A stretch of DNA of 51,548 bases, taken from IMG/VR virus record IMGVR_UViG_3300044712_000759, positions 1 through 51,548 of that record. One strand, given 5' to 3'. A model generated the notes under the pieces. It searched no databases. It saw nothing but the letters and a program-made list of their open reading frames with translations, and was not told the origin of the DNA. How positions within the stretch are numbered: position 1 is the first letter of the stretch; each line of letters opens with the position of its first letter. The position numbers and the translations under genes were made by a program. The stretch is from a virus. Below are positions 936 to 33,590 of this stretch, piece after piece.

Positions 936-977
936 TAAAAAGCCCCGCTTCGGTGGTGTGAGGCACGTGGCGGGGCT
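936..977 (-). terminator. Intrinsic terminator inside leader L3
   Basis: On the minus strand AGCCCCGC (977-970) and GCGGGGCT (948-941) form a perfect 8-bp stem followed by TTTT. It lies between MuF (1079-2140) and the gene at 537-926, and downstream of the promoter at 1038. It can end MuF transcription and can attenuate the promoter's own transcript. Confidence 0.8.
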
Positions 978-1045
978 GCGTTATTGAAAGATGGAAAAAT
1001 GAAGCTCTTTTAACTGTGACCTCACACAATCACACCACAAATATA
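936..1045 (-). promoter_or_regulatory. Leader L3: promoter, 5' antisense arm and attenuator
   Basis: The -7 box TATATTTG lies at 1045-1038. The predicted RNA begins at once with arm A (1037-1020). A can pair over 8 bases, in either of two registers, with CCTCACACCACC (963-952), which sits in the loop of the terminator formed by 977-970 and 948-941. The order is therefore A, B, A', B', T-run, as in leaders L1 and L2. Either pairing should interfere with the other. The gene start follows 15 bases after B'. A frame starting TTG at 1027 stays open to the gene start, but I do not count it as a gene. Confidence 0.6.
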
Positions 1046-1060
1046 GTTCTTTTTTGAATT
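1038..1060 (-). promoter_or_regulatory. Promoter with TTC-N6-GAA operator-like palindrome
   Basis: On the plus strand TTC (1047-1049), six T, GAA (1056-1058) directly abuts the minus-strand -7 box TATATTTG (1045-1038), giving GAACTATATTTG. A bound protein would cover the promoter, so repression is the simplest reading. Confidence 0.6.
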
Positions 1061-1078
1061 ACAATGAAATTATTTGAA

Positions 1079-2140
1079 CTATTTTTTCAATAGTCCTGCA
1101 ATTATTTGCTCATTATCCTGAATCCAATAGGGCATTGTTCTGTAACCGGATAATGTTTCATAGTTGGTACTGAGGTAGTCACGAAACCCGGCCGGGTATT
1201 CACGGACCATTTTATTAAGTTCTTTTTGTCCCCCTTTTAGGTAATTAAGGAAGTCTTCTGATGAACTGAGTACTGGTGTAGCGTGGCATAAACACTGAGT
1301 ATGCCATCCTGTCCACACGAAATCCTTCGGGTATGTCCCTTCACACACTTCGCAGATCTCAGGGAAATTGTACTCCGGGTGCTGGGCCGAGAGGCTGATC
1401 TTTATACCCTTGACCATATCAAGCTGATTCCATCGTATATTATCAGCCAGAAGAAAAGCCTGGTTCGTGTTCGAGCGGGCCAGCCGCATGGCATTTTTAA
1501 AAGCACTTCGATAAACGCCCTGCCCCGGGTGATATTCCAGCATTGCCTTCGACGCAACCAGTTTGCCATTCTCGTTACGGACCCTGCGAAATAACGCGTT
1601 CGGGTTCTGAAGGTACTGTCGTATCCTTCTGCTTAATACCTGGGCGCTGTCACCGTTCGTTATTGCTATCCCCAGGTGCGCGGTCATCTCGGCACGGAGT
1701 TGTTCGGCTACTTTCCACACGCTATCAGATAGCGAACCGGTGCCATGATCGGCCATGTTCGCAATGAACGCTTTCAGCGCTGGGGTATTCGGCAGGAAAT
1801 AGGCGGCTTTTTGTGCCGCTCGTATAGTGCCGATTGTGCTGAGAAACTGACCAACTAACTGGTCGTTCTTTGCATTACTCAGGTTCCATGCCCGCTCAAT
1901 ATCACTGACCTGCATCTCGAGAACGCGGTCGTGAAAGTCGGTCATCATGGCCGTTATCCGCTCGTCGAGATACGGATTCAATACGAACGCCTTTGCAAAA
2001 CGTATATTCGGGTCGTCTATTATCTGGGAAAACTGCTCAATGATGCGGTCGAAGATCTTCTGATACCTGGCATTGAAAGCGGCCTGGTTTGCGAGGAACT
2101 TTTCACGATACCGGTTTGATATGTCGAGATAGTCAGGCAC
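1079..2140 (-). CDS. MuF / SPP1 gp7-like head morphogenesis protein
   Basis: This is a 353-residue protein with a GTG start (the first bases overlap the stop of the epimerase gene). The N-terminal two thirds are helical. The C-terminal part holds the MuF-type signature near residues 255-290: EICEVCEGTYP followed by WTGWHTQCLCHATP, in which the Cys and His spacing is characteristic of Phage_Mu_F. Members of this family are minor head proteins that bind the portal side of the procapsid and are packaged in small numbers. In most phages the gene follows the portal gene directly. Here it is separated from the portal by about 7 kb of cargo genes (2.13-9.34 kb). It is the last gene before the leader and terminator at 936-1045. 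Confidence 0.85.
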   Translation of the reverse strand: MPDYLDISNRYREKFLANQAAFNARYQKIFDRIIEQFSQIIDDPNIRFAKAFVLNPYLDERITAMMTDFHDRVLEMQVSDIERAWNLSNAKNDQLVGQFLSTIGTIRAAQKAAYFLPNTPALKAFIANMADHGTGSLSDSVWKVAEQLRAEMTAHLGIAITNGDSAQVLSRRIRQYLQNPNALFRRVRNENGKLVASKAMLEYHPGQGVYRSAFKNAMRLARSNTNQAFLLADNIRWNQLDMVKGIKISLSAQHPEYNFPEICEVCEGTYPKDFVWTGWHTQCLCHATPVLSSSEDFLNYLKGGQKELNKMVREYPAGFRDYLSTNYETLSGYRTMPYWIQDNEQIIAGLLKK

Positions 2141-3011
2141 GGTTAATGTTGTTTAATACCAACCTTACGCCCGCAACTATTCCTATTTGCGGGGAAATGC
2201 CGGTAAGATCGCGCTGTTTTGTAACATCAGGTATCTTTTCAAGTGTCATACGGTCCGGCTGATTAACTTCTTCTATCAGGTCTCCGTAATTTATATTCAG
2301 TGCTTCACAAATAATCATTGCCAGTCCCTTGGTGTGGACCGGGAAAACGGACCCTATGTTCACCGTCTCCGGCCCCTTCACATAAATCAATTTCTCCAAC
2401 ACTCGCACCCCATCAGATATGTGCATCCACGACCGAACAGACCCCTTGTGAACTTGTATTTTCTTCCCCTGTGATAAATCTGTGCAGAACCGTATCATTG
2501 CGCTCCGGTGGTCGCCCCTGGTTTCGTCCTCGTCATAAAACATGAACGGCCGCACGATAATAGCATCCTTCAGATGATATTTCACAACGCTTTCACTGAG
2601 CAACTTTGTCACCCCATACAGGTTGTTAGGTTTACATTCCCGGTCCTCATGTAACACGCCGCCGATATTACCGTAAACCTCAGAGGTCGAAAAATGAATG
2701 AGCTTTGCTCCGTATTGCTTGCATAGAAGAACTACATTGCTTGTGCCGGAAACATTTACATCTATCGCCAGGGAGGGAGAGGCTTCGCAGGTGACACGAC
2801 TGACCATTGCGGCAAGGTGATATACCACTTCGGGACGAAAGTCGCTAAAAACACGCTGCAAATCCACCGGTGAAAGGATATTGACAACTGAATATCCGGG
2901 CTTCCACGCCTGAACCTGGTCAATGCAATAAACCTCATGGCCTTTTGACTGCAAAAAAGGAACCAGTTTGCGGCCGATATTGCCCTCTGATCCGGTGACA
3001 AGTATTTTCAT
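2133..3011 (-). CDS. NAD-dependent sugar epimerase/dehydratase (extended SDR)
   Basis: The product is 292 residues. It begins with a Rossmann nucleotide-binding motif, MKILVTGSEGNIGRKL (GxxGxxG), has the STSEVYG strand with the catalytic Ser/Thr near residue 110, and has the catalytic Y-x3-K in NLYGVTKLLSES near residue 132. This layout is that of extended short-chain dehydrogenases such as UDP-glucose 4-epimerase and dTDP-glucose 4,6-dehydratase, acting on nucleotide sugars in the cytoplasm. The exact substrate cannot be read from the sequence. The neighbouring glycosyltransferases suggest it supplies or alters the sugar they transfer. It ends 8 bases inside the MuF gene and starts 4 bases after the glycosyltransferase at 3015-3755, so it is translationally linked to both. 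Confidence 0.85.
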   Translation of the reverse strand: MKILVTGSEGNIGRKLVPFLQSKGHEVYCIDQVQAWKPGYSVVNILSPVDLQRVFSDFRPEVVYHLAAMVSRVTCEASPSLAIDVNVSGTSNVVLLCKQYGAKLIHFSTSEVYGNIGGVLHEDRECKPNNLYGVTKLLSESVVKYHLKDAIIVRPFMFYDEDETRGDHRSAMIRFCTDLSQGKKIQVHKGSVRSWMHISDGVRVLEKLIYVKGPETVNIGSVFPVHTKGLAMIICEALNINYGDLIEEVNQPDRMTLEKIPDVTKQRDLTGISPQIGIVAGVRLVLNNINRA

Positions 3012-3014
3012 ATT

Positions 3015-3755
3015 TCAAAAATCATTTGTTATTAAATGAACCGCCCGGGGGTTGCGGTCCTGTATCAGCTTATTGTATAAATGCCTGTTCTTTTCGAGTG
3101 CCTTAAACCGTTCTTCCCCGTACTCGGTTGTGTAGTGCCATTGGTGTATGACATAAGGGAATTCAGTTATGTAAACCATTATCCCCAGCATGCGGATCCG
3201 GGCCAGCAGATAGTTATCACCGTAGCCCACGCCGTCACTGAACCGTTCATCATATCCGTTAAGTTTGATTATGTTCGCAGCTGTGATAGCACTGCAGAAG
3301 TCATAACCTACCGGCCGGTATTTAGGGTGATTATACCAGGCACTTTCACCGTCGAACTCTGAACCCTTCATGTTGATTACACTCCCGGGGTCTTCTCCTT
3401 TTCCCTGCGAATAACAGCCGAACGAAAAATAGATCTTATCAGTCACGGCCCCGGCATAGTGCAGAATATTGTTTACGTGCATACACTCTGCATTTTGTAG
3501 TACTATTATATCGGCACCCCTGGATAGGGCGTATTTGATCCCGGCGTTATAGGCTGGTTCGGGGTTGGTCCATGTCTTGCCTCGCATCTTTATCACAACA
3601 ACTTCAAAGGGTAGTTTCGGGAGTATGATATCTTCCGGACTTCCGTCGTCCACGATCACAACAAAAAAATCCTTCGGGTCGTACTGTAAAAAAGAATGGA
3701 GCGTGTTTGTTAACTGCTCCTGCCGGTTGTAATATGTTGCGACTATTGCGATCAT
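3015..3755 (-). CDS. Family 2-type glycosyltransferase (GT-A)
   Basis: A 246-residue protein starting MIAIVATYYNRQEQLTNTL, then VVIVDDGSPE: the N-terminal beta-alpha unit of GT-A glycosyltransferases. The position normally occupied by DxD reads IIVLQNAECMH, so the usual metal-binding aspartates are replaced. The C-terminal part has NGYDERFSDGVGYGDNYLL, the aspartate- and glycine-rich acceptor region seen in galactosyltransferase-like members. It should transfer a sugar from a nucleotide donor in the cytoplasm; donor and acceptor are unknown. The missing DxD may mean a different metal site or weaker catalysis. The start overlaps the upstream stop as ATGA. Confidence 0.8.
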   Translation of the reverse strand: MIAIVATYYNRQEQLTNTLHSFLQYDPKDFFVVIVDDGSPEDIILPKLPFEVVVIKMRGKTWTNPEPAYNAGIKYALSRGADIIVLQNAECMHVNNILHYAGAVTDKIYFSFGCYSQGKGEDPGSVINMKGSEFDGESAWYNHPKYRPVGYDFCSAITAANIIKLNGYDERFSDGVGYGDNYLLARIRMLGIMVYITEFPYVIHQWHYTTEYGEERFKALEKNRHLYNKLIQDRNPRAVHLITNDF

Positions 3756-4192
3756 TTAACTATCGTTAATTCCTCACCGGTCAGGGCAAAGTAAAAGTTT
3801 TGAAGTTGGTGAACGTATTTTAAAAGAGATGAGGGAATTATTTCTTTATGCCCTTTTGTATAATGCCCGTGGATATCTTTACAAACAGTCGTTTCTGTAA
3901 CGTGCCATTCATCTCTATAATACCTGATCATTAAATGCTTTCCGTGGAACTTAATAAACGCGCATTTTTCACACCATTCGTATTTTTCAAACCCAAACTT
4001 CAGCAGCCATTCTTCGGTGAGTTCAATAGGTTGATAAACCGACATTACAGCATCTGGCCTTTCCTCGTTTTCTTCGGAAATTGCTTTTAGTAAGGGAATT
4101 GTCACTACAACAGGCTTATAGGTCTGATAAGTGTTAAGCATATTCCCTCCGAGGTTAATGAGGTTTCCTAATCTCAATTCAGTTGCTTTCAT
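3752..4192 (-). CDS. Conserved Bacteroidetes phage protein of unknown function
   Basis: The product is 146 residues. It starts MKATELRLGNLINL, contains QPIELTEEWLLKFGFEKY in the middle, and ends LLKYVHQLQNFYFALTGEEL. This combination recurs in small proteins of Bacteroidetes phages and prophages and has no assigned activity. It has no signal peptide or membrane segment and is probably cytoplasmic. It is translationally coupled to the glycosyltransferase downstream (ATGA) and follows a short membrane protein. Confidence 0.6.
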   Translation of the reverse strand: MKATELRLGNLINLGGNMLNTYQTYKPVVVTIPLLKAISEENEERPDAVMSVYQPIELTEEWLLKFGFEKYEWCEKCAFIKFHGKHLMIRYYRDEWHVTETTVCKDIHGHYTKGHKEIIPSSLLKYVHQLQNFYFALTGEELTIVK

Positions 4193-4199
4193 GTCTCTT

Positions 4200-4409
4200 T
4201 TATATTAAATTGTTTGGTCTGTTATGTCTATCCCTTACCGTCCACACCCATGTCTGCACACAACTGATCGCTGCACAAATAAGCAGGAAGGCAAGGATAT
4301 ATGGGTAATACTGCCGAATCAAAAAGATAAGCCAGTAAATCATCACCGCACTCAGGGCAAAGCCTATGATGCAGAAGATCCAGAACATTATCTCTCGGTA
4401 TCGGGTCAT
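4200..4409 (-). CDS. Small protein with two membrane segments
   Basis: This 69-residue protein has two hydrophobic stretches (about residues 8-30 and 34-54) joined by a short loop (RQYYPY) and a basic tail, the layout of a small inner-membrane hairpin. The ATG is coupled to the upstream gene (ATGA). I see no specific family signature. Within a block of sugar genes it could anchor an enzyme or act as a membrane carrier partner. A holin-like function is possible by topology, but it is far from the lysis genes. Confidence 0.5.
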   Translation of the reverse strand: MTRYREIMFWIFCIIGFALSAVMIYWLIFLIRQYYPYILAFLLICAAISCVQTWVWTVRDRHNRPNNLI

Positions 4410-4630
4410 ATTGTATTCAATATCTCATCAAACAACTCAATGTTTTTCTGCGTGTTGCGGCAAGTAAAGTCTATCCCACCCACATAGAAATGAATAACTT
4501 CCCTGCCGCCGTCGATCCAATAACCCGTGAATTGCTTTTCATTGAAGAAGAAGGGGGTGAAATCTGCTTCCTGTTTCAGATCCAAATCACACGCCTGTTT
4601 GTTCAATATTCTAATTCTAACTATTCTCAT
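4406..4630 (-). CDS. Hypothetical protein, 74 residues
   Basis: The frame starts with ATG at 4630 inside the end of the upstream glycosyltransferase gene (14-base overlap) and ends in ATGA overlap with the membrane protein. The product (MRIVRIRILNKQACDLDL...) is predicted to be soluble and mostly beta, and ends FTCRNTQKNIELFDEIL. I recognise no motif. The close packing and intact frame are the evidence that it is a gene. Confidence 0.5.
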   Translation of the reverse strand: MRIVRIRILNKQACDLDLKQEADFTPFFFNEKQFTGYWIDGGREVIHFYVGGIDFTCRNTQKNIELFDEILNTI

Positions 4631-5255
4631 CTTTCCTTACGTGTGTGTGTGATGCTGTGTCCTCGTCCTGAGTGCGATAATAATACTGCTCATCTTCCGG
4701 TAAGTCCCGGATATGATCGTACGACCAGGGTACATGAATAGCCGTGTACGGGCGGTTAGTGCGGAGTCCTTTGTATGAGAACGTCCGTGTTTTGTATAGC
4801 GCAAACGTGGTGTCAACGGGTGCGTTAAAATACATGCTGTCGAGTGCGGACTGCCAAAAGGGTTTCTCCCAGTCAATCGTTCCCTGATTCTTCACGCCTT
4901 GTAATTCGAGGGAAAAACCGCACTTATCGAACATTGGGTAAGATCTTAACCCTTCTTCCAGCACAATGAGGAAGTCGGGCGGGATCCCGGACAGGTCGAG
5001 GTCAGGATCAGTAACAATGTAATTGCCCCGAATTCCGAGCTTGTCGAGAAGGTTTTCTTTCCATACCACGTGAGCGCCGTAGTTCTCTTTCATCCTCACG
5101 ACCGGGAAAGGACAGCGGGTATTGTAGTATTCGAGCAGGGGTGGATAGGTGCTGTTATTGTCAATAATGATAGGTTCCAGCCCATTGTTAGCGCACCAGT
5201 TTGCGAGCTTTAAGGGAAGGGAGAGGCGGTTAAAATTGATTATGAGGGTTTTCAT
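4617..5255 (-). CDS. GT-A fold glycosyltransferase
   Basis: A 212-residue protein. Its N-terminus MKTLIINFNRLSLPLKLANW leads into EPIIIDNNSTYPPLLEYY, the nucleotide-binding half of GT-A enzymes. YIVTDPDLDL near residue 80 supplies the acidic DxD-type metal and sugar-nucleotide site. The C-terminal part, with many aromatic residues (SYKGLRTNRPYTAIHVPW), is likely the acceptor side. A cytoplasmic sugar-transfer role is well supported; donor and acceptor are unknown. The gene is coupled to the YopX gene upstream (ATGA). It is one of four glycosyltransferases in this block. Confidence 0.75.
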   Translation of the reverse strand: MKTLIINFNRLSLPLKLANWCANNGLEPIIIDNNSTYPPLLEYYNTRCPFPVVRMKENYGAHVVWKENLLDKLGIRGNYIVTDPDLDLSGIPPDFLIVLEEGLRSYPMFDKCGFSLELQGVKNQGTIDWEKPFWQSALDSMYFNAPVDTTFALYKTRTFSYKGLRTNRPYTAIHVPWSYDHIRDLPEDEQYYYRTQDEDTASHTHVRKDENS

Positions 5256-5713
5256 GACTTCAGCAGTTCGGGATTTTCATAAATATTGCCGATAACTTCA
5301 AGCGATTCTTTATCTTCCATGAAATCAAATAATTCACTTAATCTGAACATCGTCCATCTGATTCGGAAATCCCCATTATGAAAATATATATCGTGACAAT
5401 GCCCGTCACTTGAATCAATGAAGCGACATCGAATAATATCACCCTCATAAATCTCCTTGCCGTTTTTGTCGTGAAGGCCGGTAAACTGCATGACTCTTAA
5501 ATCCTTTTCGCAATGCTGATATGCTTCTGGATTTAAAATATAGGCATTTAAAATATGACTCCATTCTCCAAGTAACATGCACTCGCCAAATAAACTAAAT
5601 CCACCAAGATTAGAATATTCATAACCTAAAAGCCATTGCTTTTTCTCGTCATCCCACGCCCGGAATTTTATATCCCTTATCATTTCTTTAATTCTATGTC
5701 TCGATATTTTCAT
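5252..5713 (-). CDS. YopX family protein
   Basis: The product is 153 residues with the family's two hallmarks: IRDIKFRAWDDEKKQW near the N-terminus and the core MQFTGLHDKNGKEIYEGDI, ending VIGNIYENPELL. YopX proteins are common small phage and plasmid proteins with a barrel-like fold and no settled function. A second methionine at residue 11 (MIRDIKFRAWD) matches the usual family start, but the ATG at 5713 overlaps the upstream stop as ATGA, so I kept the longer form. The gene sits among glycosyltransferase and zinc-protein genes. Confidence 0.85.
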   Translation of the reverse strand: MKISRHRIKEMIRDIKFRAWDDEKKQWLLGYEYSNLGGFSLFGECMLLGEWSHILNAYILNPEAYQHCEKDLRVMQFTGLHDKNGKEIYEGDIIRCRFIDSSDGHCHDIYFHNGDFRIRWTMFRLSELFDFMEDKESLEVIGNIYENPELLKS

Positions 5714-5865
5714 TTTGCCTTCTCAGTTAAATGCAACCATTTCTGTTTATGCTTACGGTATCCGGTATTGCATTTATGAGCAAGCGGTCGGACAAAGTAC
5801 CTCCCGCAATGCTGGCACTGTACTGTGGCCTCTTTAAATATCTCTCTGCCCTTGTTGTGTTTCAT
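5710..5865 (-). CDS. 51-residue zinc-binding protein
   Basis: A short gene with ATG at 5865-5863 and TGA at 5712-5710. It overlaps the upstream gene as TAATG and the downstream gene as ATGA, so both ends are fixed by coupling. The product opens MKHNKGREIFKEATVQ and carries CQHCGRYF, PLAHKCNTG and YRKHKQKW: a C-x2-C followed by H-x-C and more histidines, consistent with one zinc site and a basic, nucleic-acid-binding tail. The function is unknown. It resembles the other tiny zinc proteins at 1-235 and 50.5-51.0 kb in style but not in sequence. Confidence 0.65.
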   Translation of the reverse strand: MKHNKGREIFKEATVQCQHCGRYFVRPLAHKCNTGYRKHKQKWLHLTEKAK

Positions 5866-6110
5866 TAGTTCCGATCGTATTCGTAAACTATCATCTTTTT
5901 AAGGCCGTGAAGTCTTAAAACCTTATTCACATTTTTCTCTGACATTTTGGCCCTGTCTGTAAAATGCTGGTGCCATATCTCTTTAAACTGAGGAGAGTTT
6001 ATGAAACGATTAAAGAGGCGCCTGTTCATGATTATAGTGTCAAAACTCACGCCTGATCTATTGGCAGCGTTAATCATGAGTTTTATGTCATTTATCGGGT
6101 CGCTTTTCAT
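5865..6110 (-). CDS. Truncated paralogue of the major capsid protein (81 residues)
   Basis: ATG at 6110-6108 overlaps the upstream stop as ATGA; a longer in-frame start at 6137 is less likely. The protein aligns with the phage's own capsid protein (47223-48290): here DPINDIKLMINAANRSGVSF, there DPIADFQAIVAAARKKGIKF from capsid residue 182. The match continues through IIMN versus MLMN, a shared helix ending F-x-x-x-(W/Y), and MIVYE versus ISVVE. The HK97-type N-arm, E-loop and most of the P-domain are missing. It could be a degenerate remnant, or a working fragment that binds capsid subunits and affects assembly or interferes with other phages. Intact coupling on both sides argues against simple decay. 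Confidence 0.65.
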   Translation of the reverse strand: MKSDPINDIKLMINAANRSGVSFDTIIMNRRLFNRFINSPQFKEIWHQHFTDRAKMSEKNVNKVLRLHGLKKMIVYEYDRN

Positions 6111-6718
6111 ACACAATACCTTCCCCCGATATGACATACAAAATACTCAGCAGGACCGATGAACTTGTGATTATCGAACTGCCGTAACTGCTGAATGAAA
6201 GCGAAGTCATGCCCGTAGCCGTCCTCGTTATCCTTCCACCGGAGATCCAGTCGTGAGGCATGGCAGATATTTGAAGTACCACAGCGACCGTACTGCGACA
6301 CATCAACGGTGCGCTCTATCCATTCTGAGCCATTCCACTGGTAGTCCGTGAAGTAAACCCAATCTTCACCGCCGAGATTGTCGTTAACCATCTTCAGGTG
6401 ATCACGGCCCCAGCGGTCGTCATTGTCAATATAGATGATGTACTCACCCCGGGCGTGAGATATGCCATAGTTCCGGGGTTCGTTGCTGAAGAGCTTACGG
6501 CGTTCGACCTTATGAAGATGAACCATTGCATTATTACCAAAGATTTTCCTTATCAGCCATTCGGTCAGATCGCACCCGTCAGCCACAACGATCAGTTCAA
6601 AGTCAGTGAATGACTGAGCTAAAACCGATTCAACGGCCTGAATGAGTTTATCGCTTCGGCCGGTTGCTGCACCGGGATAGTCGGCGAGAAGTGAGGGGAG
6701 GATGACGGAGAAACGCAT
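6107..6718 (-). CDS. Family 2 glycosyltransferase
   Basis: The product is 203 residues with the classic GT2 N-terminus: MRFSVILPSLLADY, AVESVLAQSFTDFELIVVADG, then NYGISHARGEYIIYIDNDDRW, in which DNDD is the metal-binding DxD. The C-terminal acceptor part is short for the family (usual length 240-300), so the enzyme may be minimal. It should transfer a sugar from a nucleotide donor in the cytoplasm. It follows the lipoprotein gene by two bases and is coupled to the capsid-fragment gene (ATGA). Confidence 0.85.
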   Translation of the reverse strand: MRFSVILPSLLADYPGAATGRSDKLIQAVESVLAQSFTDFELIVVADGCDLTEWLIRKIFGNNAMVHLHKVERRKLFSNEPRNYGISHARGEYIIYIDNDDRWGRDHLKMVNDNLGGEDWVYFTDYQWNGSEWIERTVDVSQYGRCGTSNICHASRLDLRWKDNEDGYGHDFAFIQQLRQFDNHKFIGPAEYFVCHIGGRYCV

Positions 6719-6720
6719 AA

Positions 6721-6984
6721 TTAATTGTGTTCAATTAAAATATACGTTCCATTCATAACCCCGAAAGAACTCTTTTCTGTAAAATAATAAGTTTTCGGCG
6801 TTTCGAGTCGTTCAACTTTTTCAGTGAGTATCCATAGATTGTCATCTTTCCAAGTTGTATTCACCAATCTTTCGTTTTTTGGGAGATCGAGAGTAGCAGT
6901 GCCTCCAAACTGTTTGACTCTCTGATTATTTGTGCATGACACAAATAACATTGACAAGAATAAAAGGACAATTATCTTTTTCAT
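6721..6984 (-). CDS. Small outer-membrane-type lipoprotein
   Basis: The product is 87 residues with a lipoprotein signal, MKKIIVLLFLSMLFVSC, in which the cysteine at 17 is the lipidation site. The mature part includes FGGTATLDLPKNERLVNTTW and ends SSFGVMNGTYILIEHN, a small beta-rich domain seen in other Bacteroidetes phage lipoproteins. After lipidation it would face the periplasm or the surface. Phage lipoproteins of this size often act in superinfection exclusion; that role is inferred here. It is the first gene behind leader L1, so it heads its own attenuated transcription unit inside the cargo block. Confidence 0.7.
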   Translation of the reverse strand: MKKIIVLLFLSMLFVSCTNNQRVKQFGGTATLDLPKNERLVNTTWKDDNLWILTEKVERLETPKTYYFTEKSSFGVMNGTYILIEHN

Positions 6985-6993
6985 TTCAATATT

Positions 6994-7083
6994 TTAAAAC
7001 CCCTCCGCAACCGGCTTATAACCTACACCACAAGGGAGAGATTCGTTTGCGAAAGGGGCGGTTAAAGTTTCTTTTTGAATCAT
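6994..7083 (-). CDS. Candidate 29-residue leader peptide in leader L1
   Basis: ATG at 7083-7081 opens a frame that crosses stem arm B and arm A' and ends at TAA (6996-6994), directly behind the terminator arm B'. The peptide begins MIQKETLTAPFANESL. No clear ribosome binding site is seen. A ribosome on this frame would cover A' and B' and so block the terminator. Open frames over such a short stretch can occur by chance, so this is a candidate only. Confidence 0.3.
   Translation of the reverse strand: MIQKETLTAPFANESLPCGVGYKPVAEGF
6996..7058 (-). terminator. Intrinsic terminator inside leader L1
   Basis: On the minus strand CCCCTTTCGCAA (7058-7047) pairs with TTGCGGAGGGG (7010-7000), with CGCAA/TTGCG and CCCC/GGGG as the firm parts, followed by TTTT (6999-6996). 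It lies 12 bases upstream of the lipoprotein start. Confidence 0.65.
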
Positions 7084-7110
7084 GATGTAGTTATAAGCAT
7101 GACAAAGTTA
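6996..7110 (-). promoter_or_regulatory. Leader L1: promoter, 5' antisense arm and attenuator
   Basis: The -7 box TAACTTTG lies at 7110-7103. About five bases later arm A, GCTTATAACTACA (7098-7086), begins. It is complementary, with a single one-base bulge, to TGTAGGTTATAAGC (7027-7014). That A' arm lies inside the loop of the terminator stem (7058-7047 with 7010-7000). The 5' end of the RNA can therefore compete with or thread the terminator. Among the four leader candidates this is the clearest A-A' match outside L2. Confidence 0.65.
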
Positions 7111-7132
7111 ATCATTTTGATTCAATATGGAA
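7103..7132 (-). promoter_or_regulatory. Promoter with TTC-N6-GAA palindrome
   Basis: The minus-strand -7 box TAACTTTG (7110-7103) has plus-strand TTC (7121-7123), six bases, GAA (7130-7132) in the region where a -33 box would be. It drives leader L1 and the lipoprotein gene. Confidence 0.55.
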
Positions 7133-7720
7133 CTATGCGAGACAAATTTTTTTGCCGTTCACTGTGAGATTGAGTTCAAAGTCGACAACGATTTTCTGTA
7201 CCTGGGTCGGGTGTTTCTGTAATTCCGCCGGAACCATGCTGTTATTGAGTTCTGCGAGGCGAGTGTTCTCGGCTTCAAGTTTGGCGATCATTTCCTTGAG
7301 TTCCTTAATGGGATTCTTTGTGATATCGGGATATTTCTCGTTTTTTTCAGCATCATAGACATCAATTACCGGAGCAGTCCATGTTTGTGTCTGCCCTGGC
7401 TGAAAAAAACGTTCATTGTCTTTATTAGCAGACTTACGCATCCCCGCCAGATCATCATTCACATCAACCTTCATCTTATCCGGCAGGCATTTACCGTGCC
7501 TCTCACCGTACTCAGCCAATCGCTGGCCAGAGTTGACCCACTTCTGAACAGCTTCCCATGCAGCCACTGAAGCCTTATCCCATGTGTTGCTGTTCTTGAT
7601 CATCGAGATATAGTTCGGCATTACCCCGAGGATCCGGCCGGCTTCCACATTTGACAGGTTTTCTTTTTCAAGTGCGGAAAGCAGTTTGTTCTGAATGTTT
7701 GTTTTTGCTACGTCGTTCAT
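7133..7720 (-). CDS. HTH DNA-binding protein with C-terminal coiled coil
   Basis: The product is 195 residues. Residues 10-50 (NKLLSALEKENLSNVEAGRILGVMPNYISMIKN) read as an XRE-like helix-turn-helix. A glutamate- and lysine-rich helical segment follows near residues 140-165 (KELKEMIAKLEAENTRLAEL), typical of dimerising coiled coils. It should bind DNA as a dimer. It ends directly in front of the promoter and operator at 7103-7132, so a role in controlling the cargo genes, including its own neighbourhood, is plausible. It is coupled to the upstream coiled-coil gene (ATGA). No inducer-binding or peptidase domain is visible. Confidence 0.65.
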   Translation of the reverse strand: MNDVAKTNIQNKLLSALEKENLSNVEAGRILGVMPNYISMIKNSNTWDKASVAAWEAVQKWVNSGQRLAEYGERHGKCLPDKMKVDVNDDLAGMRKSANKDNERFFQPGQTQTWTAPVIDVYDAEKNEKYPDITKNPIKELKEMIAKLEAENTRLAELNNSMVPAELQKHPTQVQKIVVDFELNLTVNGKKICLA

Positions 7721-7974
7721 GATTTGCTTTTTAGTTCGTTTGTGAGTTCATCAATTCTCCCATATAGTTTTCTTATCTCTTCTGAAATATATGATACTTC
7801 ATGTTTGCAGGAACTACCGGATACAAGCCAGTCATGATTTTCACCTCTCCCCTTTTTGACAAGCAATAACAACAGATTCCCTATATCAGTTTTTAGCCTT
7901 TCATTTTCAGCGGCAATTTCTTTAACTTCATTAATGCCAGCAACATTAACTTTTATAACATACGGTAGTTTCAT
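7717..7974 (-). CDS. Small coiled-coil protein
   Basis: The product is 85 residues. An N-terminal strand (MKLPYVIKVNVAGINEV) is followed by two helical heptad-rich segments (IAAENERLKTDIGNLLLLLVKK and EIRKLYGRIDELTNELKSK). It is probably an oligomeric adaptor. Both ends overlap neighbours as ATGA, linking it to the glycosyltransferase upstream and the HTH protein downstream. I recognise no family. Confidence 0.5.
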   Translation of the reverse strand: MKLPYVIKVNVAGINEVKEIAAENERLKTDIGNLLLLLVKKGRGENHDWLVSGSSCKHEVSYISEEIRKLYGRIDELTNELKSKS

Positions 7975-8948
7975 GACAATTCATTTATTACATTAAGTCT
8001 CATTACGTTAACTTTTGACAGCGAAAGGCAGTCTTTTACGTACTCCCATGCTATGTTATTTTGAGCCACCGTGTCAACCTCTCCGCTCATGACGGCCCGC
8101 ATAGCAGATAGGAATTCTTCTGCGTTGTTATACGGCAGCGCGCCGGGGACGTTCCACCAGCCGGGAGTGATGCAGCATGCACCCGCCCAGGTTCCTTCAA
8201 TGTAGGCAATGTTACTGCGGCACCTGTTGAACGTGTTATCGTGCAGCGGGATGAACATACCGGCCGGGCATTTCTCGGCCAGCTTCTTGAAATACATGAT
8301 TATATCCAGTGCCGGCAGGAAGTCTTTATTGTTTGTTTCAGCCAGAAACCAGGGATAAAACCCCATGAACAGAAAATTCCAGTCGGGAAATTCGATCGTT
8401 GCCAGGTTTATCTCTTTACCGTAAGTCATCATGTCGTAAATATGCGCCTCTGGTCCCCGCCAGACCATCCGCCTTTCCCGCTTCGGCAGTTCAGTGCGCC
8501 GGAGAAGATCCTCGTTCAGTGCGTTCGGTATGACCTGAATGTTTGTATTGAACTGCTTGTACGCCTGCCGCAAGAATTCTGTCGGGACAGTAACCACGTC
8601 GGCCATCTTCAGGCATTCTCTGACATTAGCCTGAGTGTCCGGGTCATTGTACGTCTGAAACGACCTGTTCTCGGGATTGAGCGCGAAAAGGTTATCGTCA
8701 TAGTCAACCCATAGCGGCTTGTTCATATCCTTCACGTAGTGGCAAAGGTCTGCAGATACTTTGGTGAACGGTCGCTGCAGCATGATGATATCATATTCGG
8801 ATAGCAGCTGCCAATGGAACACTGTCTCACTCCACTGCTTTACGTCGATGCGGTGAGAGCTTTTTCTCTGAAGGTCACGGACGATGCCACCGGCACGATA
8901 AAAGCTGGTTGCGTCGTATTTTTCGGGTACTACAAAAAGGATGTTCAT
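7971..8948 (-). CDS. GT-B type glycosyltransferase
   Basis: I start the gene at ATG 8948 (MNILFVVPEKYDATSFYRAGG); two codons further upstream only TTG is available. The protein is about 325 residues. Residues 75-95 read KPLWVDYDDNLFAL, and later MADVVTVPTEFLRQAY and IQVIPNALNEDLL are the linker region of GT4-like enzymes between the two Rossmann domains. The C-terminal domain ends with PYNNAEEFLSAMRAVMSG, the usual tail helix. It should be a cytoplasmic retaining-type glycosyltransferase; substrates are unknown. The gene follows the papain-like protease gene and is the first sugar gene after the portal. Confidence 0.8.
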   Translation of the reverse strand: MNILFVVPEKYDATSFYRAGGIVRDLQRKSSHRIDVKQWSETVFHWQLLSEYDIIMLQRPFTKVSADLCHYVKDMNKPLWVDYDDNLFALNPENRSFQTYNDPDTQANVRECLKMADVVTVPTEFLRQAYKQFNTNIQVIPNALNEDLLRRTELPKRERRMVWRGPEAHIYDMMTYGKEINLATIEFPDWNFLFMGFYPWFLAETNNKDFLPALDIIMYFKKLAEKCPAGMFIPLHDNTFNRCRSNIAYIEGTWAGACCITPGWWNVPGALPYNNAEEFLSAMRAVMSGEVDTVAQNNIAWEYVKDCLSLSKVNVMRLNVINELS

Positions 8949-8950
8949 GA

Positions 8951-9340
8951 TCAATTATTCTTTTTATGAAATACTTCAAACCTGAGAATATCTATAATTC
9001 CGGTGTTGTCGGGATGCGGATCATGTGCAATTCCGTTTTTCCAAACTACCGCATGATTGACTCCTCTCTGACTTCTACCTATAGCAATGCAGTATCCGTG
9101 CGTATCCTGAGATTCAAGCACTCCTGACAACACACAATCAATAGGTATAGATGAATACTCATATCCCGTTGAATCTAGTATTTCCATCATCTCGTTATAT
9201 TCTTCGGGCCATGTTATATCCCCATTGTGATATGGAAATAATTCTATATCGCATTCCAAAACAGATGCAATACATGCACGCCAACAGTCCCCATGCTGCT
9301 GGTCGGGGATATGTATATACTTTTGTTTGATTGGTATCAT
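8951..9340 (-). CDS. Papain-like (C39-type) cysteine peptidase homologue
   Basis: The product is 129 residues. QHGDCWRACIASVLE near residue 18 holds the active-site cysteine preceded by Gln and Gly-Asp, and VNHAVVWKNGIAHDPHPDN near residue 95 holds the catalytic His followed by Asp, the order of small papain-fold or C39-like peptidases. It has no signal peptide and should act in the cytoplasm. Possible substrates are a head protein precursor or a host protein. It lies between the portal and the glycosyltransferases; the neighbours do not settle which. Confidence 0.65.
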   Translation of the reverse strand: MIPIKQKYIHIPDQQHGDCWRACIASVLECDIELFPYHNGDITWPEEYNEMMEILDSTGYEYSSIPIDCVLSGVLESQDTHGYCIAIGRSQRGVNHAVVWKNGIAHDPHPDNTGIIDILRFEVFHKKNN

Positions 9341-9352
9341 ATAAATTTTATA

Positions 9353-10807
9353 TTACTGAGGTATTCCGGCTATTTCTTTACTATTGTCTTTCTGTATTCT
9401 CTGAAGCTCCGTCTCTGCATCTTCAACCAAAGGGTTGATCTCAACGGCGGTTTCCTTGCTTATGATTCCGCTTGTCTTTGCCACTGACAGGTTATCAATC
9501 ATCTCAGTGTCATTGCTCGGCAGGTATGGCGTGATGACTGGCTTTAATTGTAGCGTCTTTGCTTCACCAGCCAGCCGGGTATCAATGACCGCACCGATAA
9601 CGGCTTTGATCAGGTTTAGGCGGCGCTGCAGTCCGATGCCGAAAATCTCCTCTTTGTCATTGACAGCCATGTGAGCATCCAGGAACATCATTTTCAGCGC
9701 CACTCCTGAGATCTGGCCGCCAATACTCATCAGCTGTTCAAACGATATGTTCGGGGTCTGGCTCATGGAATAGATAAACTTCTCCAGGTTCTCGACTTCC
9801 ATCTTGATTGACTCCGGGGGTGAGGACAGAGCCAGGTAGTTTGCTTTTGCCGCATCTGACAGTTCTATTATCTTACCCTGCTCGCCTTTTGATGCAAAGC
9901 CCAGCACCTGGCCAGAGATAGCCAGGATAGGCGAACCGAAATAATCATTCATGTCAGCATGGTTTGAAACAAGCTCTTCCTGCCGGTCTATCATAGTCTG
10001 CACGTCGTTCCATTCCGGTTTCTTCTGCGAGTGATAAACGACCATGATCTTATTTACGGCGTTCGGGACCGGATTAACTACCTTCTGTCCCTCTTTGGTC
10101 CATACGTTTACTTCCTGGTCTAGCTGCCATGTATTGTCCCGCAAAACGTATTTATACTCAAATTCCGGGGTATAAACATCGAAGTGTTCAATATCGGTAT
10201 CGCCTTCTTTGATCATGTACTTTCTAGCAAAGGCAATCATGTCGCCGGTATTGTCAAACAGCGGGTACAGCGTATCACCCAGGTCAGGGGAAATGATCTT
10301 TATTTTAAGTGAAAACTGCTCACCTTTTTCTTTCGGCGGTTCCAGGTACCACAGTTCGGCACACTCCATTTCACTCATCATACGGCGGGCTATCTCTTTA
10401 TTTTTGTAGTCCATTTTGTTATCGTTCTGGATCTTCTCGACCATTGCAATCAGATCCTTTTCCTTTTGTGTGGCCGTCGCCCCGGCGTAAATGGCTGACA
10501 CTGTTACCGGATTGGAGAGCATGAACCCGACCCGCCTGTTTACAATCAGCTTCTGATATGGCAGTCCTACCCTGGCAACCGGTACCAGTTCGGTTATGGT
10601 CTGCCGTTTGTTGTCCGCATCCGTTGTCTCGGTGTCTTTCTTTATGGTCTTATCGGGTCTGATAGTTTCATCGAAGATATCATGCCCTTTGACTTGATAC
10701 TGATTAATGGCTTTTTCCGTTTCGACGTCAAACTTCGGCTTGCTGCCCTTAAAAAGCAGTTCGATTTGTTTGAAGTCCATTGATAGAATTACATCCTGTG
10801 CATTCAT
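9353..10807 (-). CDS. Portal protein (SPP1 gp6-like)
   Basis: I start at ATG 10807 (MNAQDVILSMDFKQIELL), 11 bases after the terminase stop; the open frame extends further upstream into the terminase gene. About 484 residues. The order VGLPYQKLIVNRRVGFMLSNPVTV, then SEMECAELWYLEPP, QMSQTPNISFEQL and GVALKMMFLDAHM matches the SPP1-type portal: stem, wing and the long channel helix near residues 350-400. Twelve copies form the DNA entry ring at one capsid vertex and dock the terminase. The length is normal. The position after the large terminase is standard; the head gene usually next to it (MuF) is displaced to 1.1 kb. Confidence 0.88.
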   Translation of the reverse strand: MNAQDVILSMDFKQIELLFKGSKPKFDVETEKAINQYQVKGHDIFDETIRPDKTIKKDTETTDADNKRQTITELVPVARVGLPYQKLIVNRRVGFMLSNPVTVSAIYAGATATQKEKDLIAMVEKIQNDNKMDYKNKEIARRMMSEMECAELWYLEPPKEKGEQFSLKIKIISPDLGDTLYPLFDNTGDMIAFARKYMIKEGDTDIEHFDVYTPEFEYKYVLRDNTWQLDQEVNVWTKEGQKVVNPVPNAVNKIMVVYHSQKKPEWNDVQTMIDRQEELVSNHADMNDYFGSPILAISGQVLGFASKGEQGKIIELSDAAKANYLALSSPPESIKMEVENLEKFIYSMSQTPNISFEQLMSIGGQISGVALKMMFLDAHMAVNDKEEIFGIGLQRRLNLIKAVIGAVIDTRLAGEAKTLQLKPVITPYLPSNDTEMIDNLSVAKTSGIISKETAVEINPLVEDAETELQRIQKDNSKEIAGIPQ

Positions 10808-10817
10808 TGTGTGTGAA

Positions 10818-12302
10818 TTATGGTAACATATTTGATAATTGACTGATTGAAACGGCTTTTTTAGCCCTCTTTTCATAGGTGCCTGTTAAAGCATCTTCAG
10901 CGTCGTCGTGCTGGTTCTTGCCTATTTTCATGTATGACGTTAGTGATTTATAGAACTCTGGCCACATCTTATCCCACCCGAGAGGCATGAAAGTCATATT
11001 CTGTACAGCCCCGGAATTCGTGAATATCCTCACGGCTTTATTTTCTGACTGATGAAACCAGTTGAAACGCGTTTTATCATTTTTCATCTCCCGACAAAGC
11101 CTTTCAACTGCACGGGCAAAGCCGCGCCCTCCGTTATTGGATTCGATATTTGCCTCAGACACGCTATGTTTTGTAATAAGTTCAGCCGTTGCCGGCTCGG
11201 TATATTCCATTGGCTTCTGAGTATAAAGTACGTCGATGACATAGTTACCCATTGGCAACTCATCATAGACAATTGCACATAAATAATCGTTTCCCTCATC
11301 GGCAGTATCAATATACGCCTTCCTTATTTTTTGGTGCTGCGGAACAATGTCATATTGCCTAAATCCGATCTCATACATAAGCCCCTGTAAAGGCTTTGGA
11401 TTCTGCATATACTGAGTATCGAACACATAAGAATTTACGTCCCTTAGTTTTCTCAGCTCGTCAAGTGTATGCTTAAACGGCCAAAGCGCCTCTTCCTCTC
11501 CTGATTCATTTGTCTGTATGCAAGGCAGTGATAGAACCTCCCATTCTCCAGGCTCTTTTGCCAGCAAAAAGCCGCAAAGATCATCTTCATGCACTCGCTG
11601 CATGATAATAATAATCGGCGTTTTTCGGCTGTTTACCCTATTTCGGATAGTAGTATCAAACTTATTATTTACCTTATTCCTTATTACAGGAGAAAGCGCA
11701 TCATCGGGCTTTATCGGGTCATCTATCACTATGGCACCCCCGAAATTCATATCCGCATCAATGGCAGGCATGAACTCTTCAATGCTATTTTCAAGTTCTT
11801 TTTGCTCCTCCTCTGAAAGATCTACAAGCCCCGCACCAAATCCGGTAACCTGCCCGGATGAACTGACAGCGTAAAGACCACCTCCCTCTGCAGTATACCA
11901 TTTTTTAGCGTTGTTTGATGTGGGTTTTGCCTTGAAAAGTTGTTGGTATTCTGGTGTCAGCATGATACTTTTTATCTCGTTTGAATTATCCTGGACCAGA
12001 TCATCAGAATATGAAAGATGAATGAATTTTGCTTTGGCGTTTAAGGCCAGTCCCTCGGCTATAAAATTCTTAACGGCTATTTCTGTCTTTGTATACCTGG
12101 GGGCTATATTTATCATTAGCTTAACGATCTCGCCCCGCAGAACCCTGTCGAGTGCATTACAAACTAACCTGTGATGCCCACCGACAATAAATCTCTTCTT
12201 ATTTTTGACCTTAAAGAAATACCGCGTAAAGTTTAAGGTGCTTAACAGGCACCATGTTTTTATAACATCAATATCCCGTATCGGTAGCTTTTCAGAAGTC
12301 AT
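10818..12302 (-). CDS. terL: Terminase large subunit
   Basis: Start ATG 12302 (MTSEKLPIRDIDVIKTW), overlapping the small subunit gene by 11 bases; an upstream in-frame start lies inside that gene. About 494 residues. The ATPase domain shows a deviant Walker A, INIAPRYTKTEIAV near residue 75, and Walker B GGAIVIDDPIKP near residue 190. The C-terminal nuclease domain has acidic positions at AYIDTADEGNDY, IESNNGGRGF and DDAEDALTG. It cuts concatemeric DNA and pumps it through the portal. Without analysing the ends I cannot say headful or cos, but the circular permutation inferred for this genome would fit headful packaging. Confidence 0.92.
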   Translation of the reverse strand: MTSEKLPIRDIDVIKTWCLLSTLNFTRYFFKVKNKKRFIVGGHHRLVCNALDRVLRGEIVKLMINIAPRYTKTEIAVKNFIAEGLALNAKAKFIHLSYSDDLVQDNSNEIKSIMLTPEYQQLFKAKPTSNNAKKWYTAEGGGLYAVSSSGQVTGFGAGLVDLSEEEQKELENSIEEFMPAIDADMNFGGAIVIDDPIKPDDALSPVIRNKVNNKFDTTIRNRVNSRKTPIIIIMQRVHEDDLCGFLLAKEPGEWEVLSLPCIQTNESGEEEALWPFKHTLDELRKLRDVNSYVFDTQYMQNPKPLQGLMYEIGFRQYDIVPQHQKIRKAYIDTADEGNDYLCAIVYDELPMGNYVIDVLYTQKPMEYTEPATAELITKHSVSEANIESNNGGRGFARAVERLCREMKNDKTRFNWFHQSENKAVRIFTNSGAVQNMTFMPLGWDKMWPEFYKSLTSYMKIGKNQHDDAEDALTGTYEKRAKKAVSISQLSNMLP

Positions 12303-12924
12303 TTTCAAGTTTGCGTAACAACTCCCTTGCTTCATCCTTTGTGAGTATCCTGGCGGCTGGAATAAGATCTTTCCCATCCTTACCTGTCACTTCAACCTTT
12401 CCGGCCGGGTCGTATCCGAGCATCTTTGTGATACTGTCGAGGGATTTTTGTTTGTCATGGAGTTTGATCTTTACATACTCAACATTGACGGGCGTTCTTT
12501 CCTTTGGATTGTCGGGGTTGTACTCATACTCGGTTTTAATCTTTGTATCAATCTCGGCAATGCAAGCCTTCTGATCGTCGGTGAGCGTTTCAAATTCCTT
12601 TCGGGTTATCCAGGTGCAGTACATGTGACCGAGCGAACTAAAGGCGATCTTTATGTGTTCGTTCAGCACTTTGAGGCGGGAGATACCGGCGACTTTCTCC
12701 AGATCTTTCTGAATTTCTTCTATGTACGCCTGTATTTTAGCATTTTTTAATAGACGATTCGCGTTAACCCCGGCAACATTATAACTGCTTACTGACTTAT
12801 ATATCTCTAAATATGAACGTGTTGCGTTCCATTCCAATATATAAGCACGGCAGAACGCCTTTTGCTTCTCCGTTAAACCCTTCTCGAGCTTTTTAGCACT
12901 GGTAGGAATTTTTTTCTGCTTCAT
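12292..12924 (-). CDS. terS: Terminase small subunit
   Basis: The product is 210 residues. After a basic start, LTEKQKAFCRAYILEWNATRSYLEIY and NANRLLKNAKIQAYIEE form the helix-turn-helix DNA-binding region of Terminase_2-type small subunits. A central helical oligomerisation part follows (AGISRLKVLNEHIKIAF), and the C-terminus RILTKDEARELLRKLENDF probably contacts the large subunit. It recognises the pac or cos site. It is the first gene of the late operon, directly behind the promoter and palindrome at 12942-12972. Confidence 0.85.
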   Translation of the reverse strand: MKQKKIPTSAKKLEKGLTEKQKAFCRAYILEWNATRSYLEIYKSVSSYNVAGVNANRLLKNAKIQAYIEEIQKDLEKVAGISRLKVLNEHIKIAFSSLGHMYCTWITRKEFETLTDDQKACIAEIDTKIKTEYEYNPDNPKERTPVNVEYVKIKLHDKQKSLDSITKMLGYDPAGKVEVTGKDGKDLIPAARILTKDEARELLRKLENDF

Positions 12925-12941
12925 ACTTAAATTTCAGCCCG

Positions 12942-12972
12942 CAAAATAGTTCTTTTTGTCCTTTTACACAAT
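12942..12972 (-). promoter_or_regulatory. Late promoter in front of terminase
   Basis: The minus strand reads GAACTATTTTG at 12952-12942 (a -7 box one base short of TAnnTTTG) with ATTG 20 bases upstream (12972-12969). The operator-like half-sites are GTTC and GGAC five bases apart (12949-12960 on plus), abutting the -7 box as at 1047 and 14526. Confidence 0.55.
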
Positions 12973-13015
12973 ACTTTTTGAACTTTTTTGTAAACAGGGC
13001 GTGAAGTTCTTATAC

Positions 13016-13047
13016 ACAAAAAAGCCTCCCCGACTGTGGAGAGGCTT
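13016..13047 (-). terminator. Intrinsic terminator after the antirepressor gene
   Basis: A 10-bp stem (AAGCCTCTCC at 13047-13038 with GGGGAGGCTT at 13031-13022, one G-T pair) is followed by a T-run on the minus strand. It isolates the late operon from the antirepressor unit. Confidence 0.85.
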
Positions 13048-13070
13048 AAAAACTAACCCTAAAACGAAAC

Positions 13071-13808
13071 CTACTTCCTGAACAATTCGGATGTTGCAGA
13101 CTCTTTTATTTTTCCCCTTCTTTTCACCAGGTCCATAACAAAAGCCCGTCCTTTTTCTGTCCAGTATGTCTGTATGGCAGATCGGTCCTGCCCGTTACTG
13201 TCGGAATAAACAAAGGTTTTTGTGCCAGTGTACCCTTTGTCCTGGTATTTATAATAAAGCACCCATGTATTACCGGCGCGATAAATAACGCCTGCCCGAC
13301 TAAGGATCTTATTGAGCGAAACGGCACTCATTCCGAGATCTTTGGCTATTACGGTTGTCGGTATAAGCCCCGGAGCCTGCAGAACGCTGTCATAGTAGTC
13401 AATTTTCGGAGAAGCTTCTTTAAGCTGCTTTGCCTGAAGTTCGGCTATTACCTGAAGACGTTCCTTTTCTTCCTCTGATTCATAGAGCATCTTTGCAAGG
13501 TCCTTACGTGTTATTGCGTCAAGGTTGATACGCTGGCTTTCCAGTTCCTCCCATCGGAGTATTAACCTGGCACGTGCTTCGTCATTGAACTTGGTTGCAA
13601 TATAGAGGCATTCCGTTTTATTAAGCTCGTACATCGGCCTCTTTTCCCCCTTTGCGTCGGCATATTCAACCAATCCAAAATTGGATCCGTTGATTTTCGC
13701 CCATGCAGCCTCCATCTCTCTGATGTCCCTCATAACATGAGCGTGTTGTCTGCCAGTATAATCTGCGATCTCCCGGCTTGTCATTGTGGCTTTAATCTCC
13801 TGTAGCAT
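13071..13808 (-). CDS. Phage antirepressor: Rha N-terminal plus KilAC-type C-terminal domain
   Basis: The product is 245 residues. Residues 8-95 (MTSREIADYTGRQHAHVMRDIR ... MYELNKTECLYIATKF) are a Rha-type winged-helix domain. A helical linker follows (KDLAKMLYESEEEKERLQVIAELQAKQL). Residues 155-235 (TTVIAKDLGMSAVSLNKILSRAGVIYR ... YWTEKGRAFVMDL) are the ANT/KilAC domain. Proteins of this build regulate phage development by binding DNA or the repressor. Here the gene sits between the replication genes and the terminase and is closed by a terminator, so it is a candidate switch from early to late expression. Confidence 0.85.
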   Translation of the reverse strand: MLQEIKATMTSREIADYTGRQHAHVMRDIREMEAAWAKINGSNFGLVEYADAKGEKRPMYELNKTECLYIATKFNDEARARLILRWEELESQRINLDAITRKDLAKMLYESEEEKERLQVIAELQAKQLKEASPKIDYYDSVLQAPGLIPTTVIAKDLGMSAVSLNKILSRAGVIYRAGNTWVLYYKYQDKGYTGTKTFVYSDSNGQDRSAIQTYWTEKGRAFVMDLVKRRGKIKESATSELFRK

Positions 13809-13814
13809 GGCAGT

Positions 13815-14057
13815 TCAGTTTTTCCGTGACAATTCGCTTTCTTCAAATGCCTGGATTCTTTTAAGAATACCATCTATGACCATGAATGCATGGTAAACAC
13901 GATCCCGGCTGTCGCTGTCATCTTCAGCGGCCAGGTTTGTCATTGCCATTTCGTTGAGAGTTTCCCTCAGATCAGAGGTAGGACCGAGCGTTCGCATGTC
14001 CGTAAGTATGCCGGACATCAAGTTCTGTTCGTTGATTGTTTCTGTTAAGTATGACAT
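13815..14057 (-). CDS. Hypothetical protein behind leader L2
   Basis: The product is 80 residues, acidic and helical (MSYLTETINEQNLMSGILTD ... LNEMAMTNLAAEDDSDSRDR ... ILKRIQAFEESELSRKN). I recognise no family. The ATG directly follows CACGGAA, part of a third copy of the sequence that forms arm A of leader L2, so ribosome access could depend on the leader fold. It ends 6 bases before the antirepressor start, and the two are probably co-transcribed. Confidence 0.5.
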   Translation of the reverse strand: MSYLTETINEQNLMSGILTDMRTLGPTSDLRETLNEMAMTNLAAEDDSDSRDRVYHAFMVIDGILKRIQAFEESELSRKN

Positions 14058-14084
14058 TTCCGTGAGATTTAAACACTGGCCAAT

Positions 14085-14243
14085 AAAAAGCGATGGCCAT
14101 TTACGCTGTCAAATCTCTCACGGAGGTTTCCGGTTTCCCGGACGTAAAATGGACCATCGCCGTATTGTAAAGGGCATAAAAAAAGGCCCTGAAGTTTGAG
14201 GCCATTAATGACCTCCGTGATATGATTTGACACACCAAAGATA
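14085..14243 (-). ncRNA. Leader L2: structured attenuator-like RNA with interleaved stems
   Basis: The -7 box TATCTTTG is at 14243-14236. Arm A (14232-14211) is complementary to A' (14127-14107) with about 18 matches over 21 bases. Arm B (14160-14143) is complementary to B' (14105-14090) with 16 of 18 bases and is followed by TTTTT (14089-14085). A' lies between B and B', so the two long stems are interleaved and cannot both form except as a pseudoknot. A 5-bp hairpin with a GAAA tetraloop (14142-14129) sits between A' and B, and smaller hairpins lie at 14214-14197 and 14190-14171. A sequence like A recurs at 14070-14058 over the next gene's start. Confidence 0.65.
14101..14205 (-). CDS. Candidate 34-residue leader peptide in leader L2
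   Basis: ATG at 14205-14203 is preceded by GGAGG at a good distance (within arm A), which is unusual here because most genes lack a strong Shine-Dalgarno sequence. The frame runs through B and A' and stops at 14103-14101 inside B'. The peptide starts MASNFRAFFYALYNTAM. A-A' pairing would hide its ribosome site, and a ribosome at its stop would prevent the B-B' terminator. The overlapping frame 14069-14269 is also open, so coding status is uncertain. Confidence 0.35.
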   Translation of the reverse strand: MASNFRAFFYALYNTAMVHFTSGKPETSVRDLTA

Positions 14244-14255
14244 TAAAATATTTTT

Positions 14256-14271
14256 AATATGCAAATCATTT
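14256..14271. repeat. 16-base repeat shared with 19964-19979
   Basis: AATATGCAAATCATTT occurs here and identically at 19964-19979, each time just downstream of a gene end and upstream of a leader promoter. The flanks are also alike (T-rich on both sides). Here its CAAA is the -33 region of the L2 promoter, 18 bases from the -7 box. It is a candidate shared regulatory site. Confidence 0.6.
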
Positions 14272-33406: not shown

Positions 33407-33590
33407 GACTGAGGTTTTTCGTTCTGGTCCCGGGACGTATCTCTCCCTTGCGCTGACATACCGGCGGCGGTATCATCACCGGCGGGTCTACCTGAAGGTT
33501 ATAAGCCGGTGCCGGGCAGTCGTCCATTGACTGGCAATACTTACACTGCCGATACTCATGTTCGACCAAATCACGGTTTTTGATATCCAT
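33384..33590 (-). CDS. Small cysteine- and proline-rich protein
   Basis: The product is 68 residues with CKYCQSMDDCPAPAYN and PPVMIPPPVCQRKG: four or more cysteines and a proline-rich stretch. It has no clear signal peptide. It lies in the lysis block, overlaps the endolysin gene and could be a zinc-binding or outer-membrane spanin-like partner, but this is a guess. Confidence 0.4.
   Translation of the reverse strand: MDIKNRDLVEHEYRQCKYCQSMDDCPAPAYNLQVDPPVMIPPPVCQRKGEIRPGTRTKNLSHGIPGNL

Follow-up and report, generated by a model that had tools for sequence, protein, structure and literature searches.

Three leaders with a common A-B-A'-B' layout in a temperate Bacteroidota phage: candidate c4/CI-type antisense RNAs with predicted antirepressor and endolysin targets

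A layout shared by three leaders

Why are three leader RNAs of one phage, each with a different sequence, built to the same plan? The phage is represented by a 51.5-kb virus record, which we call, at its full length, the window; it carries both an integrase gene and a repressor-like gene and is a temperate Bacteroidota phage. Its leaders L1, L2 and L3, all on the minus strand, are laid out as A-B-A'-B', in which A' is complementary to A and B' to B. A first-pass annotation had proposed that the A:A' and B:B' (terminator) stems compete or form a pseudoknot, so that the start of the RNA can decide termination, and knew of no named RNA class built in this way. The question is whether A' answers only to the 5' end of its own RNA or also to sequences elsewhere.

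The arms, promoters, T-runs and spacings described by that annotation were all located again at the same positions, each leader lying directly downstream of a TAnnTTTG box; the layout is real and recurs with different sequences. Arm A begins at about +1 in all three leaders and the gap between A' and B' is 1-3 nt. In L1 and L3, a small hairpin at the 5' end carries arm A in its loop, a detail that had gone unmentioned. To compare A:A' pairing with chance, the first 30 nt of each leader were subjected to 12,000 mononucleotide and 12,000 dinucleotide shuffles. The pairing clearly exceeded chance in L1 and L2; in L3 the excess was weak. For L2 (22 nt, about -30 kcal/mol), the observed energy was reached by 0/12,000 shuffles of either kind. 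For L1 (-12.5 kcal/mol for the arms as originally drawn, -21.5 to -23.3 kcal/mol for the first 25-30 nt against the loop), it was reached by 1/12,000 mononucleotide and 0/12,000 dinucleotide shuffles. For L3 (-15.9 kcal/mol for the arms, -23.0 kcal/mol for the first 25-30 nt), the counts were 13/12,000 and 58/12,000, a weaker result due to repeated GTGTG. When 474 TAnnTTTG sites from the window and 80 related phage contigs (the terminase relatives) were scanned, L1, L2 and L3 ranked with the strongest outliers, as did RNAs in the contigs L046, L010, L052, L037, L042 and L027. A separate scan for the pattern TTTG-TGTCAAA...TTTGACA returned mostly chance palindromes.

Database searches with the window itself gave little. 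No related phages were found by a nucleotide search of an annotated collection, and the antirepressor, the endolysin and the 87-aa and 129-aa proteins, used as baits, each had few relatives. Rfam at the gathering threshold produced 0 matches over the whole window; a permissive scan (E ≤ 10) gave nothing for L1, L2 or L3, and the RF01695 model had no match anywhere in the window. Among the other genes, a NAD-dependent epimerase gene (2133-3011; PF01370, 7.8e-36) lies within the late region and probably has a role in surface modification.

L2 and its c4-type relatives

L2 is preceded by a promoter (14236-14265) with a -33 TTTG (14265) and the -7 box TATCTTTG (14243-14236). Arm A (14211-14232) is the upstream target-like copy, equivalent to a1b1 or seqA of known systems. 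Arm B (14143-14160) is the 5' arm of a c4-like core, or terminator, stem; between B and A' lies a GAAA-tetraloop hairpin (TCCGG GAAA CCGGA, 14129-14142), identified from the sequence and from alignments with its c4-2 relatives, which have it too. The antisense element A' (14107-14127) is followed by B' (14090-14105), the 3' arm of the stem, and by TTTTT. In the minimum-energy fold, A:A' forms in place of B:B'.

The antisense segment of c4-type RNAs binds its target mRNA in the region of the ribosome-binding site (PMC5320573, PMC12197685), and the CI RNA of P4 has two pairing partners, one on its upstream and one on its downstream side (PMC4825925). By that logic the terminator should be followed by another copy of A, and after L2 there is one. 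This copy, A2 (GTGTTTAAATCTCACGGAA, 14076-14058), had been overlooked in the first pass; it is the equivalent of a2b2 or seqC, overlaps the translation start of gp80 and touches its start codon. A':A2 pairing reaches -19.8 kcal/mol (p = 0.002), and when the L2 core was cofolded with 62 pre-start regions, gp80 was singled out as the best. gp80 (13815-14057, minus strand), an 80-aa small ORF and the predicted L2-controlled gene, is followed by the antirepressor gene ant (13071-13808, minus strand), whose product has Rha and KilAC domains (PF03374, 2.3e-31; PF09669, 1.3e-21; phrog_63, 7.6e-55). We take gp80 to occupy the position of icd in phage P1. Three features by which the c4-type clan is recognized are thus found in L2: an antisense segment complementary to an upstream copy, another such copy at the ribosome-binding site of the gene that follows, and a small ORF followed by the antirepressor.

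The claim that no named RNA class has this design did not survive comparison with other phages. In the permissive Rfam scan, the RNAs of L216, L084 (the same contig as L037) and L222 were recognized as c4-2 RNA (RF02944, clan CL00128) at 71, 58 and 54 bits, and relatives with the L2 layout had E values of 1e-9 to 1e-14. c4-2 RNA, reportedly described by Weinberg and colleagues in 2017, resembles L2 in its promoter-proximal A, its core stem with a GAAA hairpin, an A' placed just upstream of the 3' arm and the recurrence of A at the start codon of the gene that follows. It differs in that the RF02944 model (membership at 41 bits or more) leaves L2 unscored, with no match up to E = 10, while L1 and L3 are without both the hairpin and the start-codon copy. 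Because L2 retains the layout and the gene order as well as the GAAA hairpin and the second target, we class it, judging from its sequence, as a divergent c4-type RNA by mechanism; because the Rfam models give it no score, we do not file it under RF02944. An HDV-like ribozyme topology (a nested double pseudoknot) had been considered for the layout and was dropped, since the c4-2 match explains it.

The context of L2 is shared by its relatives. In L037, L042 and L010, as in the window, an antirepressor follows the RNA directly or after one small ORF, and the antirepressors of L037 and L222 are similar to that of the window. In seven relatives, too, A recurs at the start codon (p from 0 to 0.058); no such recurrence was seen for L3, L046 or L1 (p = 0.998 for L1). 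A search of Bacteroidota genomes with RF02944 found matches in 11/395 genomes of a phylum sample, 10/200 of one family and 0/14 controls, and most of the matches carry a promoter, A, a core with A' and the start-codon copy.

The first-pass annotation had read the repeated layout as a sign of selection on structure. For the L2 type this was borne out by strong co-variation of A and A' across relatives; L1 is a single case. At 35 c4-type loci, for which some segments were chosen by eye and 21 by anchors only, the mean energy of A:A' was -16.4 kcal/mol with a locus's own partner vs -7.5 kcal/mol with swapped partners, and that of the start-codon copy with A' was -14.8 vs -6.7 kcal/mol; 0/10,000 permutations reached the observed difference. 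Since the co-varying partner includes the start codon, these results point to antisense control as the function, and not to a leader fold alone. A covariance model built from a sequence alignment of 15 cores caught 7 pairs only and was not used. The differences in sequence among leaders reflect differing targets and immunity specificities.

Three known systems help to place L2. The c4 RNA of P1 and P7 (RF01695) is likewise an antisense RNA from the leader of an ant operon and represses antirepressor synthesis (PMC5320573, PMC12197685); it is excised by RNase P, whereas here a terminator-like stem ends the RNA. The P4 CI RNA (seqA-CI-seqC) shares the antisense core with complementary sequences on both sides, and premature termination has been reported for it (PMC4825925), but its target gene is another one, and the second target of L1 is 26 kb distant. 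IsrK of prophage Gifsy-1 is also a short RNA with a terminator that is partly read through, and it precedes an antirepressor operon (PMC4825925); it activates anrP, however. Given the integrase and the repressor-like gene, immunity is a sensible role for L2, which would be the immunity RNA of the phage and repress gp80-ant in lysogeny.

L1, L3 and their possible targets

L1 follows a promoter with the -7 box TAACTTTG (7103-7110) and consists of arm A (7086-7098), a candidate target mimic at the 5' end, arm B (7047-7058) of the terminator hairpin, and arm B' (7000-7010) followed by TTTT. Window-wide comparison of its A' revealed a match overlooked in the first pass: the 36-nt terminator loop holds two blocks of 15 and 12 nt, exact and colinear, that are antisense to the endolysin leader at a distance of 26 kb from L1. 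Block 1 (ATCTCTCCCTTG, 7031-7042) is complementary to CAAGGGAGAGAT (33439-33450), about 33 nt upstream of the endolysin start codon, and block 2 (AGGTTATAAGCCGGT, 7010-7024), which is mostly A', to ACCGGCTTATAACCT (33496-33510). The bipartite site (33510-33439) extends from 33 to 104 nt upstream of the start and lies inside gp68, a 68-aa ORF (33384-33590, minus strand) that overlaps the endolysin start. The endolysin gene itself (32915-33406, minus strand), the predicted target of L1, encodes a glycosyl hydrolase 108 domain and a peptidoglycan-binding domain (PF05838, 1e-22; phrog_315, 8.4e-48).

None of 10,000 dinucleotide shuffles reached the block match, and no other such match occurred among 1,715 window segments. 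When L1 was cofolded with the 62 pre-start regions, the endolysin was the only outlier, with a net pairing of -27.8 vs a mean of -8.2 (s.d. 3.3); the next best region had -12.8. Arm A of L1 also resembles the endolysin target, so that L1 appears to repeat in trans the c4 logic of target mimic, antisense loop and target. As in c4-type RNAs, the bipartite target is near a start codon, here that of the remote endolysin gene. L1 thus seems to be a c4-like antisense RNA directed in trans against lysis, and would repress endolysin synthesis. It stands as a single case: searches returned no homologues of L1 or of its target region, and a lysin relative in L363 (37% identical) has no matching antisense RNA. 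The nearest published likeness is PAK_P4as15 of phage PAK_P4, an RNA antisense to the endolysin gene that is proposed to repress endolysin and thereby put off lysis (PMC12197685); that RNA is cis-encoded and about 550 nt long, whereas L1 is trans-encoded, about 100 nt long and c4-like in layout. In the literature searched, we found no trans-encoded antisense RNA delaying lysis.

The L1 loop (7042-7010) can also be described as the reverse complement of two gp68 segments within 33510-33439, with a spacing 39 nt shorter and in frame. The antisense RNA may have arisen through inverted duplication of its target.

L3 has the same arrangement: a promoter with the phage motif TTCAAAAAAGAACTATATTTG (1038-1058), a weakly defined arm A (1020-1038), arm B (970-977), A' (952-963) and B' (941-948) followed by TTTTT. 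No second target for its A' was found within the window, and the 62 start regions yielded no outlier. The motif TTCAAAAAAGAAYTANNTTTG is identical at 1058-1038, where it drives L3, and at 14537-14517, where it precedes a 64-aa ORF upstream of L2; 0.13 matches within 3 mismatches were expected, and it is likely a phage-specific promoter motif.

Cis or trans: weighing the readings

We favor, at a probability of about 0.7, the reading of L1, L2 and L3 as small antisense RNA genes of c4/CI type, with L1 aimed at the endolysin and L2 as the immunity RNA. Each would be a gene with its own Bacteroidota-type promoter and terminator, whose stem B:B' would present A' as the antisense segment. Arm A, at the 5' end, would serve as a copy of the target; A' could then bind both this copy, in RNA that is nascent or free, and the target mRNA, the latter in trans. 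In L2, the partners of A' would be A, at the start of the ant-operon transcript, and the copy that covers the gp80 start codon. The antirepressor would thereby stay off in lysogeny, through a block of translation, premature termination upon pairing with nascent A, or both. L1, with the same layout, would act in trans on the endolysin leader and hold back lysis. L3 has the layout and no target in the window. The reading draws on the architecture, the second target, the co-variation among L2 relatives, the antirepressor context and the unique complementarity of L1 to the endolysin leader; expression, repression and the direction of effect are what it predicts.

The cis attenuation of the first-pass annotation, in which the 5' end of the RNA settles whether transcription stops short of the following gene, keeps part of its ground: the position of A at about +1 and of A' 1-3 nt before B' in all three suits the stacking of two helices, and L2 folds best with A:A' rather than B:B'. 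It leaves unexplained, however, the second copies of A at start codons and the remote target of L1, which mark A' as an antisense element whose targets are not confined to its own 5' end. An identical layout, moreover, acts between molecules in P1/P7 and P4 (PMC5320573, PMC4825925), and homologues of the genes following L1 and L3 occur elsewhere without such leaders, so that L1 and L3 look like independent small-RNA cassettes and not like attenuators. We consider cis attenuation quite improbable.

Two further alternatives concern single leaders. That the endolysin match of L1 is a relic, an inverted partial copy of gp68 with no regulatory role, its 5' pairing merely protecting a stable RNA end, would account for the conserved order of the two blocks and the in-frame difference of 39 nt in their spacing; yet the matches are exact with abrupt ends, fall within a hairpin loop and face a site just upstream of the endolysin start, and arm A resembles the target independently. 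We regard the relic as rather doubtful, and give about the same weight to the possibility that L3, perhaps also L1, is an ordinary terminator behind a promoter whose complementarity is accidental. This would fit the 0.1-0.5% of L3 shuffles that reach the observed energy and the lack of a target for L3 in the window; it sits less well with the place of L3 among the top outliers in 474 sites and with the exact recurrence of its promoter motif at a second site of the phage.

Under the antisense reading, the kinship of L1 and L3 to c4 is one of design only, because they have neither the GAAA hairpin nor a start-codon target. The leaders would then comprise a known kind of antisense RNA (L2), a lysis-aimed variant that looks unreported (L1) and one unexplained case (L3). 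c4-type immunity RNAs are extended to phages that the Rfam model does not score, with an antisense-target logic backed by co-variation across the 35 loci. Should the prediction for L1 hold, one kind of RNA would govern both lysogeny and the timing of lysis in a single phage, and the c4 design would be a reusable module. More tentatively, Bacteroidota phages might use the c4/CI layout as a re-targetable small-RNA cassette, directed at ant and lysogeny, at the endolysin in trans and at a third target outside this record.

Some features of the related RNAs were noted in passing. A very strong A-B-A'-B' RNA in L046 (5145-5273, minus strand; -30 kcal/mol) is convergent with a head gene and has no gene behind it; its 5.6-kb contig contained no target. 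The c4-2 cores of L322-L349 combine the GAAA hairpin with a UAUGG/CCUAAG internal loop in the B stem that resembles the 11-nt tetraloop receptor, probably forming a tertiary contact. In L351, L352 and L355, c4-2 RNAs precede helicase-like genes of 459-460 aa, and not antirepressors; in P4, the CI RNA controls replication genes, a parallel to this arrangement. Tandem c4-2 copies about 120-180 nt apart were found in one genome each for the pairs L347/L329 and L345/L328.
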